Positions 3,254 through 64,000 of a stretch of 64,000 nt of DNA are shown one piece after another (positions within the stretch are counted from its first letter, which is position 1; every line of letters starts with the position of its first letter). The notes beneath the pieces were generated by a model. It ran no database searches, was not told the DNA's origin, and saw nothing but the letters and a program-made list of their open reading frames with translations. Position numbers and translations under genes: made by a program. The stretch lies in NCBI RefSeq assembly GCF_031432975.1, contig NZ_CP133838.1:4092001-4156000 (forward strand), written 5' to 3'. This stretch comes from Buttiauxella selenatireducens (GTDB lineage Bacteria > Pseudomonadota > Gammaproteobacteria > Enterobacterales > Enterobacteriaceae).

Positions 3254-3450
3254 GCAGTTCTTTATCATTATCTACAACGCCTCAAAGCAACAATTCCTCT
3301 CTCTACCCGCTCATTTCCAGCAATACCCTTCCCTCAAACGATGTCGATAAAAGACAGGCGTTCACATAGCTTTAAAATGAGAAAATCAACGTTGTCCCGA
3401 AAAGAAACCTAAGCAGAAGAATGGAATGGAAATGTCAGGGAGGCAGAATT

Positions 3451-3564
3451 GGGTGGGGGCCCTGCCAGCTACATCCCGGCACACACGTCATCTGCTGCGG
3501 CTGCTTCCTTCCGGACCTGACCGAATTCACAAATTAGTGTTGCGGGAGAACCAACAGGGCCCCC
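3451..3564 (-). ncRNA. ffs: 4.5S RNA, RNA component of the signal recognition particle
   Basis: The 114-base segment read on the minus strand begins GGGGGCCCTGTTGG and ends GGGCCCCCACCC, giving the long closing helix. It keeps the SRP core: GTCCGGAAGGAAGCAGC on the minus strand, with the GGAA tetraloop region and internal loops that bind Ffh. Length equals E. coli ffs (114 nt). The apical segment differs from E. coli in a few bases. 4.5S RNA with Ffh targets nascent inner-membrane proteins to FtsY and SecYEG. The gene lies upstream of atl as in E. coli. Confidence 0.95.
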
Positions 3565-3597
3565 ATTGAGAGCGCTAGTTACCTAACGCGCTGGCGC

Positions 3598-3626
3598 ATT
3601 ATCCATGTTGCCCCAGGCAATTGCAA
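3598..3626 (-). promoter_or_regulatory. ffs promoter
   Basis: On the minus strand TTGCAA (3621-3626) is followed after 17 bases by GATAAT (3598-3603), then a GC-rich discriminator. A start near 3590 would leave a 5' leader of about 25 bases. That fits the known RNase P processing of pre-4.5S RNA. Confidence 0.7.
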
Positions 3627-3758
3627 GCAAGGAGCGGTCAGGTGTTGCTTTCTTGCGCAGCCCCTGTTTTTCTTTCTAGTTTAGCGCACGACGATTATCC
3701 TTACCCTCTGGCTGTTATACCCAGGTGACTTCAAAGCACAGGGTAAATGGAGTTAGCT

Positions 3759-4070
3759 ATGGAAAATAACGATTCATTCCCGCAGCGCGTTTATCAGATT
3801 ATCGCTGCTATCCCGGAAGGTCACGTCACGACCTATGGCGATGTGGCTCGGCTGGCAGGTTCCCCCCGCGCCGCGCGGCAAGTAGGCGGTGTTCTCAAGC
3901 GCCTACCTGAAGGCAGCAAATTACCCTGGCATCGCGTGGTGAACCGTCATGGCACGATTTCGCTGACCGGCCCGGATTTACAACGTCAGCGGCAAGCGTT
4001 GCTTTCAGAGGGAATTATGGTGTCTGGCAACGGGAAAATTGATATGCAGCGTTATCGCTGGAATTACTAA
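3759..4070 (+). CDS. atl: Alkyltransferase-like protein Atl (O6-alkylguanine lesion binder)
   Basis: About 103 residues from the ATG at 3759, which has GGAG six bases upstream; another ATG at 3747 is possible. The fold is the DNA-binding C-terminal domain of O6-alkylguanine-DNA alkyltransferase. The active-site PCHR is PWHR here (LPWHRVVN), so the acceptor cysteine is replaced by tryptophan, the mark of the ATL family. Such proteins flip and bind O6-alkylguanine and flag it for nucleotide excision repair. The helix GSPRAARQVGGVL and the end YRWNY match E. coli YbaZ. The gene lies just downstream of ffs, in the opposite orientation. Confidence 0.93.
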   Translation: MENNDSFPQRVYQIIAAIPEGHVTTYGDVARLAGSPRAARQVGGVLKRLPEGSKLPWHRVVNRHGTISLTGPDLQRQRQALLSEGIMVSGNGKIDMQRYRWNY

Positions 4071-59182: not shown

Positions 59183-60064
59183 TTACTCTGCGTTTACGAT
59201 ATTTCTACGCAGTGAGTTTATTACGTGCCTGTTCTGAAGCAATACCAGACGTTCCATGTAGTTGATATCTTTAGGCAACAAACTAAATGCGCTTTCCACC
59301 CAATCTTCTGTAATATCCATTAATTCGGCCCGAGTTAATGTTAACACCCGCTGACGTGCACGTAGCATGGCCCTGATACCATTTAGTTTTGGCCTCATGG
59401 TATCAATAAATGTGCGAGTTGAAATTAATCCGAGCCCTGGTTCGAATACATGGTCAACTAACCCCTGATTCTTATGCCATGTAGCATCATGAGATTCTCC
59501 CTTAGCAATCAATTCCTCTGCAAGTCTCATTCCTGCTCGTCGTGCGACCAAAGAATATCCTCCCATACCCGGAAATAAATTAAATGAAATTTCAGGGAAC
59601 CCTAATTTGGCATCACGTTGTGCGAGGATGAAATGATGGGATAAGGCCGCCTCAAAACCCCCTCCAAGAGCGGTTCCTTCGACCAGAGCTATACTCACCG
59701 CGCCAGTATCAAAACCACTAGCCGCAGCGTGAACGCAGTCTACACAGGACCTGGCGTAGGCCCGAAGTATTTCCCTGCGTCCATTTTTAATGCATTCGAC
59801 AAAGAAATTAAGATCTCCTCCGGCATTATACATATCCTTAACCAACGAACCGGTTACCCAAAATTCTGTTTGGAAATTATTTTTTTTGACGAGATGACTG
59901 AGTTCAAGTATTTCCTCCATTAATTGATGATTAAATGAAGGCCGAGGATGTGCATTCAGCATCATCCAAACTATTTTCCTCTCTTCTTCATAATACCCAG
60001 CAAGCTGTGTGTATTTATTATCGTCTGTGAATTTTAATGTGTTCTGAAATTTAATAACTGTCAT
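59183..60064 (-). CDS. rpfF: RpfF-like DSF synthase (crotonase family)
   Basis: 293 residues from the ATG at 60064, after AAGGAAAG. Crotonase fold with SIALVEGTALGGGFEAALSHH and GFPEISFNLFPGMGGYSLVARR. These are hallmarks of RpfF, the synthase of cis-2-unsaturated fatty-acid signals (DSF), rather than of ordinary enoyl-CoA hydratases. The two catalytic glutamates known in Xanthomonas RpfF correspond to E138 and E158 (20 apart, same spacing). AGGDLNFF before them also fits. No receptor gene (rpfR or rpfC/G) is in the window. The gene is AT-rich against its core neighbours, suggesting acquisition. A different crotonase activity cannot be excluded. Confidence 0.8.
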   Translation of the reverse strand: MTVIKFQNTLKFTDDNKYTQLAGYYEEERKIVWMMLNAHPRPSFNHQLMEEILELSHLVKKNNFQTEFWVTGSLVKDMYNAGGDLNFFVECIKNGRREILRAYARSCVDCVHAAASGFDTGAVSIALVEGTALGGGFEAALSHHFILAQRDAKLGFPEISFNLFPGMGGYSLVARRAGMRLAEELIAKGESHDATWHKNQGLVDHVFEPGLGLISTRTFIDTMRPKLNGIRAMLRARQRVLTLTRAELMDITEDWVESAFSLLPKDINYMERLVLLQNRHVINSLRRNIVNAE

Positions 60065-60210
60065 ATTTTCTTTCCTTTTTATGGTTACGCGAATTATTCG
60101 CAAGGAAAGATTACTGCACAGGGAAGAAGTTTATATATCCAGAACACTGTATGTTATTTGTATTTAGTGCAATTAAGAATTACACACACTTTATTTAAGC
60201 ATCGAAAAGC

Positions 60211-60780
60211 TCAATAGCCCTGACACAAGTAACTAATGTAATTACCAGGAAGCCTAAATATATCATGAATTTTTCTAATGCCTATTTTTTTGAAAGCATT
60301 ACGCTGATGTGAGTAAGCGGTCTTTGTTGAAATATTTAACCTTGAACTAATATAGTCAATATCTATCCCTTTAAATGTTAACAGCAGAACTCTTTTCTCT
60401 GATATGGTTATTTTGGGTAATTTTATTTTTTTACTTCTCACTGGTTGTATCAGATGAATATTCTGTAGTAAGTCACTTAGATAAAACCTCCTCATAATGG
60501 TGGCAAACCTGAAGATAGAGCTAATATTCCACTCTGCATTATCGGTGGCTATGATGACTGAAGCGTCTGTTTCATTTAATTTCATCAACAATGAGAAATC
60601 CATGTTATGGAAATCATTCGCAATAATAAAAACATCTCTTCTCTGAATGAGATGCAAATGTTTCGATGCATCATACTCCGCAGGATTTAAGTGTATACAC
60701 TGACAATTGACATGTTCTGAAAGTGATTGTTCTATCCCGTAAAATAAATAATTATTCTCAGTTAAAATGTAAATATTCAT
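60211..60780 (-). CDS. LuxR/FixJ-type HTH regulator, orphan
   Basis: 189 residues. The N-terminal 110 residues look like a degenerate receiver (MNIYILTENNYLFYGIEQSLSEHV...DVFIIANDFHNMDFSLLMKL). The LuxR-type HTH covers about 122-172 (ISEKRVLLLTFKGIDIDYISSRLNIS, then KTAYSHQRNAFKKIGI). The layout recalls RcsB-partner or fimbrial regulators of enterobacteria (BglJ, YjjQ, FimZ types). No partner kinase is nearby. It is AT-rich with many AAA and AUA codons. It lies between the adhesin operon and the DSF-synthase-like gene, same strand, so it could control either. Confidence 0.82.
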   Translation of the reverse strand: MNIYILTENNYLFYGIEQSLSEHVNCQCIHLNPAEYDASKHLHLIQRRDVFIIANDFHNMDFSLLMKLNETDASVIIATDNAEWNISSIFRFATIMRRFYLSDLLQNIHLIQPVRSKKIKLPKITISEKRVLLLTFKGIDIDYISSRLNISTKTAYSHQRNAFKKIGIRKIHDIFRLPGNYISYLCQGY

Positions 60781-60826: not shown

Positions 60827-60863
60827 GCCAGTTAATCACATGCTGTATACGTGATTAACTGGC
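60827..60863. repeat. 13-bp perfect inverted repeat
   Basis: GCCAGTTAATCAC and its exact complement flank an 11-base centre (60840-60850, containing GTATAC). It lies 14 bases past the stop of the unknown secreted protein and 46 bases before the LuxR-type start. No T tract on either strand, so it may be an operator or a Rho-independent-like hairpin of weak type. Confidence 0.65.
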
Positions 60864-60877
60864 ATTCAATTTCAGAT

Positions 60878-61765
60878 TTATTTTATTTTCTTACCCTCTG
60901 TTTTCTTTTCTTGATCGATCACTTTTTTTACACTTTCGGTAACCACTGGCTTAGCTGAGGCGATAATCGTAACCGGTGAGAAGTATTCTTTACCGAGAAT
61001 TTTTCCATTACCTAACCAGACCACACCGCGAGAAATAAGCACCTGTCCTTTTGGCGTTATTTGCAATTCCCTTCCCTGATTATCTGCTGCGCTCAGCGTT
61101 GATTTTGTGATCGTGCCCGGTGAGTATTTTGCGGTATCTGAGGTATACAGAACTTTCATCAGTCGCAGGTACTCTGGAGCGTAGTTATAGACAGTTCTTG
61201 CTATGCTTCTCTGGTAATCATCCCAGGTCAGATTACCGCTCGTCGGTAGGTTACTTGCGATGACAGCAAATAATTGCGCATTTGCTTGAGCCATGGACAT
61301 TTTAATACGCATTTCGCTGGCAAACTTAGCTGAGTTAAGCTTAGTGTCTACATTTCCTTTTTTATCTTTAGTTTTATCATAAAGTGATGCGTTATCGGTT
61401 AGTTGAGAAAGCGTTGTAGCAACATACGTTGCACATGTATACGCTTGTGCCGCTCTGTCCCCATTCACCATCAATGAGGATAATGCCCCCTGAGCCGGAA
61501 TAGTGTTAGGATCAATATTATTTTTCGCCAATACATCCTGGACATCCTGTTGAGATTTATCACCACGCGCTAAATCACAGATTTGCTGCATAACAAAATC
61601 ATTACGATTGCCGTTGGCCGCATTCATATTATTCAGTGCGTCAACAATAAGATTATATGAAGGAACGTTAATTGATTTAACATTCAGATCTGACGCAGCA
61701 GAAAATGCGTGGCAACTGGTCAGGAATAAAAGACCGCCGACAGCGGTCTTGATTAAGTTTTTCAC
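60878..61765 (-). CDS. Secreted protein of unknown family in the adhesin operon
   Basis: 295 residues; I do not recognise the family. A signal peptide covers about 1-23 (MKNLIKTAVGGLLFLTSCHAFSA). The LTSC inside it could instead be read as a lipobox, giving a lipoprotein with C18. The mature part is mainly helical at first (about 30-215, Asn- and Ala-rich). A short beta segment follows (GRELQITPKGQVLISRGVVWLGNGKILGKEYFSPVTI). It ends in a Lys-rich tail. C63 and C111 are the only mature cysteines apart from C18 and could form a disulfide. It starts 9 bases after the TpgA-like gene, so it is the third gene of the adhesin operon and probably acts in the envelope with the adhesin. Confidence 0.85.
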   Translation of the reverse strand: MKNLIKTAVGGLLFLTSCHAFSAASDLNVKSINVPSYNLIVDALNNMNAANGNRNDFVMQQICDLARGDKSQQDVQDVLAKNNIDPNTIPAQGALSSLMVNGDRAAQAYTCATYVATTLSQLTDNASLYDKTKDKKGNVDTKLNSAKFASEMRIKMSMAQANAQLFAVIASNLPTSGNLTWDDYQRSIARTVYNYAPEYLRLMKVLYTSDTAKYSPGTITKSTLSAADNQGRELQITPKGQVLISRGVVWLGNGKILGKEYFSPVTIIASAKPVVTESVKKVIDQEKKTEGKKIK

Positions 61766-61774
61766 GAAATTACC

Positions 61775-62569
61775 TTATTTAATATCTACAACATCAACAG
61801 TCATGCGGCGATTTGGTGCAAGGCATTCAATGACAGCCGGAGATTTTGCACCCGGACAAACAACGCGAGGAGCAGAATCACCCAGACCACGTGTTTCAAT
61901 AATGGACGCTGGAATACCATGTTCAGTCAGCATTTGTTTTACAGACTCAGCACGGGCTAAAGACAGCTGCATATTTTTCACGGAATTACCGATACGGTCG
62001 GTATAACCGGAAACTACAACATGCTTACCGTTTAAATCTTCAGCCTTGAGATCTGCCGCCAGGTAATTCACCTGAGAAACACCTGAAGCGCTGATAACAG
62101 AACTGTTAAACGCAAACAGACCTTCTGCATTCAATTCCTTATGCATTGATTTTGCTTTAGCCGGAGCCTTTAATTTGGATAAGCAATCATCCGGTGCAAA
62201 GAAGAAGCTCTGCGCTTTCATATCTGAATCAAAGAGTACTTTATACTGGCATGTCAGCACGGAATTATCAGGCTGTGTGAAGTGGAAGATATAATCCCAC
62301 TCTTTTACACGGAATACACCTTCATCAAAATGTGGTGTGCCAATTAATTCATACACTTCAGCTTTAGTCATGCCTGGACGCATTTGTTTTAAGTTGTCCA
62401 GATTAACGAAACTGCCTTCATCGCGTACTGCGTGAGACGCTTCTGGGAATACTGGGCTGTCCGTTTTACCCTGTGAATCAACATTACTGACTGAACGAGT
62501 ACAAGCTGATAGTAATAACAGGCCGCCTACAACCATAACAAGGCGAGCAGGTTTTAATTTAATAATCAT
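61775..62569 (-). CDS. TpgA-like lipoprotein with BamE-like and OmpA-like domains
   Basis: 264 residues. Lipoprotein signal with LSAC (C23). A BamE/SmpA-like region (about 57-115, NLKQMRPGMTKAEVYELIGTPHFDEGVFRVKEWDYIFHF). A C-terminal OmpA-like peptidoglycan-binding domain (about 150-264) with VVSGYTDRIGNSVKNMQLSLARAESV and APNRRMTVDV. This domain pair is that of TpgA, encoded with the adhesin Ata in Acinetobacter, which helps the trimeric autotransporter reach or hold its place in the outer membrane. It follows the adhesin gene by 91 bases, across a hairpin. Confidence 0.85.
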   Translation of the reverse strand: MIIKLKPARLVMVVGGLLLLSACTRSVSNVDSQGKTDSPVFPEASHAVRDEGSFVNLDNLKQMRPGMTKAEVYELIGTPHFDEGVFRVKEWDYIFHFTQPDNSVLTCQYKVLFDSDMKAQSFFFAPDDCLSKLKAPAKAKSMHKELNAEGLFAFNSSVISASGVSQVNYLAADLKAEDLNGKHVVVSGYTDRIGNSVKNMQLSLARAESVKQMLTEHGIPASIIETRGLGDSAPRVVCPGAKSPAVIECLAPNRRMTVDVVDIK

Positions 62570-62600
62570 TGTATTTATCTCTTAAAAATTGGGTTAACAG

Positions 62601-62621
62601 GCCTCCGGAATCCCCGGAGGC
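62601..62621 (-). terminator. Hairpin between the adhesin and the TpgA-like gene
   Basis: GCCTCCGG/CCGGAGGC, perfect 8-bp stem with AATCC loop, no T tract. More likely an attenuator or 3'-end stabiliser than a full terminator. Confidence 0.5.
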
Positions 62622-62660
62622 ATATTTAATATTTAAACTAAATCAGGTTTAACTAAGCGG

Positions 62661-64000
62661 TTACCACTGGTAGCCAACACCGACTGCTCCACCCAGGTCA
62701 CCCTGTGTGTTCGTGGAGCCAGAAAGTTTCGTTACCCATTTCCCGTTATCGGAAATGACAGATACGCCCAATGCGACGGCAGACTGATCCTGGTAGGTGG
62801 AACCCGCCATTGCGACCATGCTTGCACCTGGCTGGTAAGCCTGCGGCAGACCGGCCATCGCCATCGCCCCTGCAATACCCGCGCTCAGTTTGTCATCCTG
62901 ATCGTCAACCATATTTTTCAGAGAGTTAAACTTGTTGTCGGTGTACTGGTTCGCGCTGCTGATACCACTCTTCAGCTGATTCACGTTCACAGCATCAGTA
63001 CCTTGAGTACCGGCCGCGACGTTAGTCACCTGACGTTCCCCACCGGCATAACCCATAGAGACGCTGTTATCGCGGTCGGTTACAGAGTTATTACCCAGTG
63101 CAACAGAATTATTATGTTTTGCACGAGAGTTAGCCCCGATAGCGGTGCTGTTATCACCACTAGCAACGGCGCCCGCACCACCCGCAGTTGAATCCTTACC
63201 GGTTGGTTTTGGTTTCGGATTATTGCTGGTGTTGTTCACCTGGAACATACCGTCCGTACCGTTGGCAATATTGGTTACATTGTTTTCAACGTTTTTCAGC
63301 TGCGAGTAGTTAACCGCATCAGAATCTTCAACCCCATCAGCCAGATTGGAAATGGTGGTTGGGCCTCCAGCCAGCGTAATGTGATTATGATTAACCGTAC
63401 CATCCGAATTGCGGTCATATTTCACCGCCCCTTCATCAATGGTTTCGATTGTAGTATTGATATTTTCAATAGCCGTATTAGTTGCATACAGTTGGGAACC
63501 GTTGACTGCATCGGTGCTGCTTGCCGTCACTCTGCCTGCAGCCACATTAGTGATGGTGCGCTCCTGACCGACATCACCCACACTCACGGTACCTACAGGT
63601 GCTTTACCCGCTACAGCATAAGTTTTGCCATCGATCGTCATACTGGTGGTTGCCACAGTAGCGGATGTTTTAGATCCATTACCCAAAGCAACGCTGTTAG
63701 CGTCAGATGCAACGGCATCTTTACCAATCGCGATTGCATTTGTTGCGCTTGCCAGAGAATTCTGACCTACCGCAATACTGCCTGCACCTGTAGAAGTTGC
63801 CTTATAACCCACGGCCGTACTTCCCTGACCCTGAGCATAAGCATCAGCCTCACCAAGCACACCTTCGTTGGTACGAACATAACGAATACCTGCACCATTA
63901 ATGGTGGTGTAATTGTTAGTCGTATCACCCGCAATTTTAAACAACTGGCTTCCGTTGATAGCATCCGTACTGCTCGCATTCACCGCTCCCTGAGCCAGGT
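62661..64000 (-). CDS. YadA-type trimeric autotransporter adhesin, C-terminal part (cut by window end)
   Basis: At least 446 residues; the frame stays open to base 64000, so the start and signal lie outside. Head repeats of the YadA type (AVGYKATSTGAGSIAVGQNS, AIAIGKDAVASDANSVALGN) are followed by a neck (NVAAGRVTASSTDAVNGSQLY). A stalk comes next (VKYDRNSDGTVNHNHITLAGG). A second head block (STAIGANSRAKHNNSVALGNNS) and neck (NVAAGTQGTDAVNVNQL) lead to a coiled coil. The beta-barrel anchor is last (AGAMAMAGLPQAYQPGASMVAMAG to VGVGYQW). The anchor trimerises to form the outer-membrane pore. Ligand unknown. Confidence 0.93.
   Translation of the reverse strand, partial: LAQGAVNASSTDAINGSQLFKIAGDTTNNYTTINGAGIRYVRTNEGVLGEADAYAQGQGSTAVGYKATSTGAGSIAVGQNSLASATNAIAIGKDAVASDANSVALGNGSKTSATVATTSMTIDGKTYAVAGKAPVGTVSVGDVGQERTITNVAAGRVTASSTDAVNGSQLYATNTAIENINTTIETIDEGAVKYDRNSDGTVNHNHITLAGGPTTISNLADGVEDSDAVNYSQLKNVENNVTNIANGTDGMFQVNNTSNNPKPKPTGKDSTAGGAGAVASGDNSTAIGANSRAKHNNSVALGNNSVTDRDNSVSMGYAGGERQVTNVAAGTQGTDAVNVNQLKSGISSANQYTDNKFNSLKNMVDDQDDKLSAGIAGAMAMAGLPQAYQPGASMVAMAGSTYQDQSAVALGVSVISDNGKWVTKLSGSTNTQGDLGGAVGVGYQW

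Follow-up and report, generated by a model that had tools for sequence, protein, structure and literature searches.

A 64,000-nucleotide stretch of the Buttiauxella selenatireducens genome (contig NZ_CP133838.1, positions 4,092,001 to 4,156,000; hereafter the window) ends in a minus-strand cluster that encodes a YadA-type trimeric autotransporter adhesin (TAA), a TpgA-like lipoprotein and an exported protein of 295 amino acids (aa), referred to here as X. Exported relatives of X lie beside YadA-type adhesin genes in dozens of bacteria, and X is thus probably a dedicated helper in the export or anchoring of these adhesins. It shows the recurrent same-strand linkage by which a dedicated TAA partner is recognized. 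The idea that X is a new TAA partner is well supported; its mechanism, be it assembly, anchoring or tuning, we infer from gene location, from lipoprotein signals and from the analogy with the known partners SadB and TpgA.

The linkage was counted in 392 genomes sampled within Enterobacteriaceae, where a profile search found X in at least 36 genomes and at 44 places, comprising 32 intact exported copies, 10 leaderless paralogues and 2 remnants. A YadA-anchor gene stands beside X on the same strand in 31 of the 44 places. The thirty-second intact copy (G1091) sits close to the end of a contig; the next 1001 base pairs (bp) are 99.9% identical to the start of the adhesin beside the identical X of another genome (G970). 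In the first-pass annotation of the window, recurrent linkage to YadA-like adhesins had been named as support for a role of X with TAAs, and homologues mostly away from autotransporters as evidence against it; the check came out positive, since all intact exported copies (32/32) adjoin a YadA-type gene and none stands alone. It is therefore hard to regard X as an independent surface or secreted factor that is mere cargo on the adhesin's mobile islands and plasmids. X loci do occur on plasmids and are patchy, being absent from 9 of 12 Buttiauxella genomes, but the adjacency is tight, same-strand, found on chromosomes and kept in three gene orders, no intact exported copy (0/32) is found by itself, and lipoproteins with aspartate at position +2 (Asp+2), as many relatives of X appear to be, are not expected at the surface; we consider the cargo explanation very improbable. 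The two remnants are a stretch of 33 residues (G912) and the C-terminal part of X (G1028). In the latter (L105, 1-800), this part lies, by eye, right behind a YadA-type-like signal start, and the locus looks as if a deletion had removed the adhesin and the front of X.

The adhesin has the domains of a YadA-type trimeric autotransporter, with Pfam matches to the YadA anchor (PF03895, 8.9e-18), stalk (PF05662, 9.2e-36) and head (PF05658, 2.4e-23), and its anchor is the sole one found in the window's genome at E 0.001. The second gene combines a BamE domain (PF04355, 1.4e-17) with a following OmpA domain (PF00691, 5.6e-18), and its lipobox is predicted to be of the outer-membrane type by the +2 rule. 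Its best NCBIfam model is TpgA (5.9e-39), but its score of 133.9 bits falls short of the 350 bits required for the equivalog NF047726, which makes it a TpgA-like relative rather than the same equivalog. A profile of this protein scores 2.1e-19 against 9vnj_B, a solved TpgA chain. The earlier description of this gene as a TpgA-like BamE+OmpA lipoprotein was thus borne out, and the adhesin, the lipoprotein and the 295-aa exported protein all lie on the minus strand where they had been placed.

X itself falls into no family that could be recognized, as had been suggested from its translation. Neither Pfam (up to E=1) nor NCBIfam gave a match for the window protein, and when the 22 members of alignment A4 were searched against both, just single-member matches were found, none better than 0.011. 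PHROGs gave none for the window X and 0.023 for one relative, while the best PDB sequence against the 22-row profile reached an E of only 0.83. A phage origin was tried and rejected, as the window protein had no match in 50,697 phage records, nor did two queries find one in IMG/VR. The signal peptide, read by eye, spans approximately residues 1-24. The predicted structure (predicted local distance difference test, pLDDT, 89) has a helical domain at about residues 36-209 and a beta domain at about 214-266, confirming the helical N-part and small beta segment anticipated in the first pass, and no clear PDB fold match was present among the matches listed for this model. The two mature cysteines that had been pointed out, Cys63 and Cys111, are both kept in every one of the 34 exported rows among the 43 of alignment A5 and in 5 of its 8 leaderless rows, and would be expected to form a structural disulphide.

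X is a real, conserved gene of patchy distribution. A protein search of 60 genomes found it in 7, counting that of the window, the nearest copy being 77% identical. Profile searches, whose genome counts are lower bounds because only the first few candidates per genome were scored, found X in at least 6 genomes of an order-wide sample of 394, and in at least 1 of 369 and at least 1 of 224 genomes in two class-wide samples, both times the window's own. Named holders include Buttiauxella noackiae, Limnobaculum allomyrinae, Atlantibacter subterranea, Enterobacter cloacae DSM 26481 and Klebsiella indica. Within Buttiauxella, X is present in 3 of 12 genomes, and a second genome of the window's species lacks it. 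Additionally, four plasmid records match the window X and one more matches a relative; on the plasmid records examined, the gene is annotated merely as a hypothetical protein.

Among the 31 loci with an adjoining YadA anchor, the order YadA-TpgA-X is found in 18. The other 13 lack TpgA; X follows YadA in 11 of them and precedes it in 2 (G970, G1063). X is therefore not the plain third member of a TpgA pair, as it had first been taken to be, for its linkage to YadA persists with or without TpgA in the orders YadA-TpgA-X, YadA-X and X-YadA, on chromosomes and plasmids. Escherichia coli plasmid pKTa005_5 has the order YadA, OmpA-family gene, X, and X lies ahead of YadA on plasmids of Serratia, Hafnia, Enterobacter and Arsenophonus. 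In two loci (L005, L044), some 5 kb containing other frames separate X from the anchor, and in L005 at least one of these frames is YadA-like. YadA anchors, tallied by genome, were found in 120 of the 392 genomes, with X beside the adhesin in 30 of these. A TpgA search covering the 120 YadA-positive genomes detected full-length TpgA-like genes (E<1e-100) in 18, and X follows all 18. On the Serratia, Hafnia and Enterobacter plasmids (L004, L005, L043), the annotation places a gene of hypothetical product and one with an EAL domain behind YadA, hinting at control of the adhesin by cyclic di-GMP.

Sequence distances of X and its neighbours are correlated. Distances between X proteins track those between YadA anchors (Mantel r 0.73, n=40, 0/2000 permutations as high, species phylogeny being uncontrolled). 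In 22 TpgA-type loci, the distance correlations are r 0.82 for X and TpgA, 0.53 for X and anchor, and 0.51 for TpgA and anchor, and the median identities are 35% for X, 54% for TpgA and 80% for the YadA anchor. The fast divergence of X suits a variable partner such as the adhesin passenger, and weak constraint would fit equally.

The export signals of X differ between the two kinds of loci. Signal peptides and lipoboxes were judged from sequence without a predictor, the lipoboxes of L090 and L091 by eye. In all 13 TpgA-less loci X carries a lipobox, followed by Asp+2 in 11 and Lys+2 in 2. Among the X proteins of the 18 TpgA loci, none contains Cys-Asp within the first 60 residues, though 8 have some cysteine in this stretch; the X of L020 has none there. 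Lipid anchoring, one of two options suggested for X in the first pass, is thus predicted for relatives but ambiguous for the window X. In a tree of 50 rows, from which six rows repeating another row and the partial row L105 were left out, the TpgA-type X form one clade (97/99) that includes the TpgA-less L033, the leaderless X form another (100/99), and lipoprotein forms lie on two sides of the remainder. This topology makes the trade between lipid anchor and TpgA about one event with no repeated pattern, and a general law of such a trade is not claimed.

The known TAA partners offer two comparisons. TpgA of Acinetobacter sp. Tol 5 is described as binding AtaA and peptidoglycan (PMC8151025) and as modelled to be a mechanical anchor for AtaA (PMC13082670). 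Both TpgA and X are encoded next to a TAA gene, but X has no BamE or OmpA domain and also accompanies YadA genes that lack TpgA. The modelling of TpgA as an anchor, the presence of X after every full-length TpgA-like gene found, and an X-TpgA distance correlation that is the highest of the pairs tested (n=22) could suggest that X remains in the mounted adhesin as a permanent structural component, a plug, collar or tether on the periplasmic side at the base of the barrel, acting in mechanical anchoring with TpgA and not in export. However, the 13 X-YadA loci without TpgA, the Asp+2 forms expected in the inner membrane and far from the barrel, and the much faster divergence of X than of the anchor, which would be unusual in a barrel-binding part, argue against this, and we regard a structural role as a minority possibility, rather unlikely on balance. 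The class-wide samples (369 and 224 genomes), in which Acinetobacter ata loci were not searched by name, gave X just in the window's own genome. No description of a third gene in a TAA-TpgA operon was found in an open-licence literature library, judged by title and the start of the abstract.

The other comparison is with SadB. It is reported to be an inner-membrane trimeric lipoprotein of Salmonella sadBA operons (PDB 4C47), whose loss lowers surface SadA, and to be known solely from enterobacteria (PMC3953254). X is likewise an envelope protein encoded beside a TAA gene, has an Asp+2 inner-membrane lipoprotein signal in 11 of the 13 TpgA-less loci, and was found just in enterobacteria in the order- and class-wide samples. 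In contrast to SadB, the window X has no Asp+2 lipobox, and its model combines a helical N-domain with a beta C-domain. Homology of X to SadB was tested and rejected: hhalign of alignment A5 against a SadB alignment (A7) gave a probability of 8% over 17 columns, confined to the signal peptide. In the fold search with the X model, 4C47 was not among the matches listed. No SadB-type gene was seen in X loci, with adhesin-upstream DNA covered in all except 12 of 40. In 20 X-less YadA loci, hand-picked from better-scoring anchors rather than at random (the anchor frame being unrecovered in L115), a SadB-type lipoprotein lies upstream in 5, a divergent TpgA in 1 and X in 0; a profile of the five SadB-type lipoproteins matches 4C47 at 1.6e-108. 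One genome (G980) carries a SadB-type operon and an X-type operon at separate places, as expected of partners dedicated each to its own adhesin. In an X-less YadA locus with a divergent TpgA (L124), the position of X is taken by a 162-aa protein (3354-3842) whose start resembles a lipobox and for which Pfam gave no match. A further gene beside a TAA is seen in Brucella, where an IalB-type periplasmic/membrane protein gene adjoins the BatA gene and the authors doubt an operon (PMC7688925); it resembles X in location but is a distinct gene.

Taken with these analogies, the evidence makes it fairly probable that X is a dedicated periplasmic export or assembly factor for TAAs, analogous to SadB and unrelated to it in sequence. 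X would meet unfolded adhesin chains in the periplasm, and would help to hold and align the three chains and hand them to the outer-membrane assembly machinery, as has been proposed for SadB. In the lipoprotein branch, Asp+2 would tether X to the inner membrane near the Sec exit. The window's branch lacks this tether or has a doubtful one, and its operon carries TpgA instead, which would be expected to clamp the adhesin barrel to peptidoglycan; X is accordingly proposed to act there as a soluble factor between them. X is a new family inside an already known kind of system, and the chances are better than even that it is, within these searches, the founding member of a family of dedicated periplasmic TAA partners in Enterobacterales. 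A wider proposal is more tentative, and we give it somewhat less than even weight: alongside SadB and TpgA, X would make up a third class of dedicated TAA biogenesis factor, of independent evolutionary origin and with a fold that has no clear counterpart among solved structures. Its family would record an exchange of tethers, in which an ancestral inner-membrane lipoprotein lost its lipid as the operon acquired the peptidoglycan-binding TpgA, and a leaderless offshoot would have been taken into a cytosolic role.

Regulatory genes near the adhesin raise another explanation, in which X is a quality-control or sensing protein that, for example, signals the presence of unassembled adhesin to neighbouring LuxR or winged helix-turn-helix (wHTH) regulators and has no part in assembly. 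Of the 15 TpgA-type loci for which upstream sequence was covered, 10 carry a wHTH gene further upstream, and LuxR-type genes occur in 7 of 40 X loci. Yet the regulators vary while X is constant, the 12 lipoprotein-type loci with such sequence have no wHTH gene immediately before YadA, and no signalling domain was recognized in X or its relatives by Pfam and NCBIfam, so that sensing seems improbable.

Several observations weigh against X as a dedicated TAA partner, or against parts of its proposed history. Since 90 of the 120 genomes with a YadA anchor lack an X next to the adhesin gene, TAAs do not generally depend on X, and three divergent or partial TpgA-like genes (G798, G1062, G826) are found without X. 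Co-transcription is deduced from gene spacing alone (X starts 9 bp past the TpgA-like stop), and a hairpin lies between the YadA and TpgA-like genes. The signal of the window X reads LTSC followed by His, an ambiguous lipobox that leaves lipidation ambiguous, and a cysteine is likewise found in the signal region of other TpgA-type X. The pattern of lipoprotein forms and TpgA amounts to about one evolutionary change, and with 2 independent pairs a sign test cannot reach significance. One locus (L033, G061) is an exception, having the order YadA-X, no adjacent TpgA and an ordinary-looking signal peptide. Finally, the leaderless paralogues (10 of 44 places) are predicted to be cytosolic and have no YadA anchor in the fetched flanks.

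The last point qualifies the expectation that homologues of X reside at adhesins, which holds for the exported copies but not for the leaderless clade. The position of this clade away from adhesin loci indicates that the X domain can serve without an adhesin, possibly in a cytosolic role. The leaderless paralogues are about 252 aa long (L023, L095-L102 and L104; e.g., L096, 9118-9876), and in 7 of the 10 loci the gene lies within 220-365 bp after a DeaD-type helicase gene. These loci look like the core pnp-nlpI-deaD region.

Autotransporters were named for their apparent self-sufficiency. With one lipid-anchored and one apparently soluble branch, the X family makes the register-keeping of three long chains during export testable, and tens of X loci are now available for comparison, together with an alignment for a gene otherwise annotated as a hypothetical protein.

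The features of the window and the adjoining DNA are given below. The description of a three-gene cluster held in that the three genes lie in line, but the cluster comprises at least four genes, as a 265-aa protein is encoded 36 bp upstream of the adhesin.

Table 1. Features of the adhesin cluster and its surroundings (window scale unless a locus number is given).
Feature	Position	Strand	Remarks
RpfF/crotonase-like gene (PRK08788)	59183-60103	-	behind the adhesin cluster
LuxR/GerE-type regulator gene	60211-60780	-	after X; also adjoins X in two other Buttiauxella loci
Perfect 13-bp inverted repeat	60827-60863		directly 3' of the X stop; seen by eye, unflagged by the hairpin scan
X	60878-61765	-	295 aa, GTG start, exported; list of open reading frames, Pfam/NCBIfam, structure model
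TpgA-like lipoprotein gene	61775-62569	-	264 aa; BamE and OmpA; lipobox LSAC-T
G+C-rich hairpin	62601-62621 (L016 8602-8622)		between YadA and TpgA-like genes; no U-run on the transcript strand
YadA-type adhesin, C-terminal part	62661-64000, runs past window end	-	445 residues; open reading frame listed as 62661-63998; Pfam
YadA-type adhesin, whole gene	62661-67775	-	one 1704-aa frame in the full genome
265-aa protein gene	L016 13813-14610 (about 67812-68609)	-	beyond the window
Winged-helix (Trans_reg_C) protein gene	L016 14868-15296		142 aa; upstream of the adhesin cluster; Pfam; no receiver domain found

The upstream 265-aa protein has an N-terminal hydrophobic segment and, on our own reading, a helical look resembling tetratricopeptide repeats; Pfam gave nothing better than E 0.14, and NCBIfam and PHROGs gave no match. 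Where upstream DNA was covered, a relative immediately precedes YadA in 11 of 15 TpgA-type loci; none was found in the 17 lipoprotein-type loci, upstream DNA being absent for five of these. The protein is a candidate second partner. One of the 11 loci (L018, 10810-13226) has a short YadA frame (343 aa), a preceding longer frame that matches both the 265-aa protein and the adhesin, and an intact X. The 142-aa winged-helix protein is likely a regulator; membership of the LuxR/GerE-type gene in the adhesin unit is uncertain. The inverted repeat behind X is possibly the transcript end, and the hairpin between YadA and the TpgA-like gene could damp or process the message. Behind the cluster, the RpfF/crotonase-like gene of the window is either extra or divergent, as a 70-71% identical copy is present in 10 of the 11 other Buttiauxella genomes searched.

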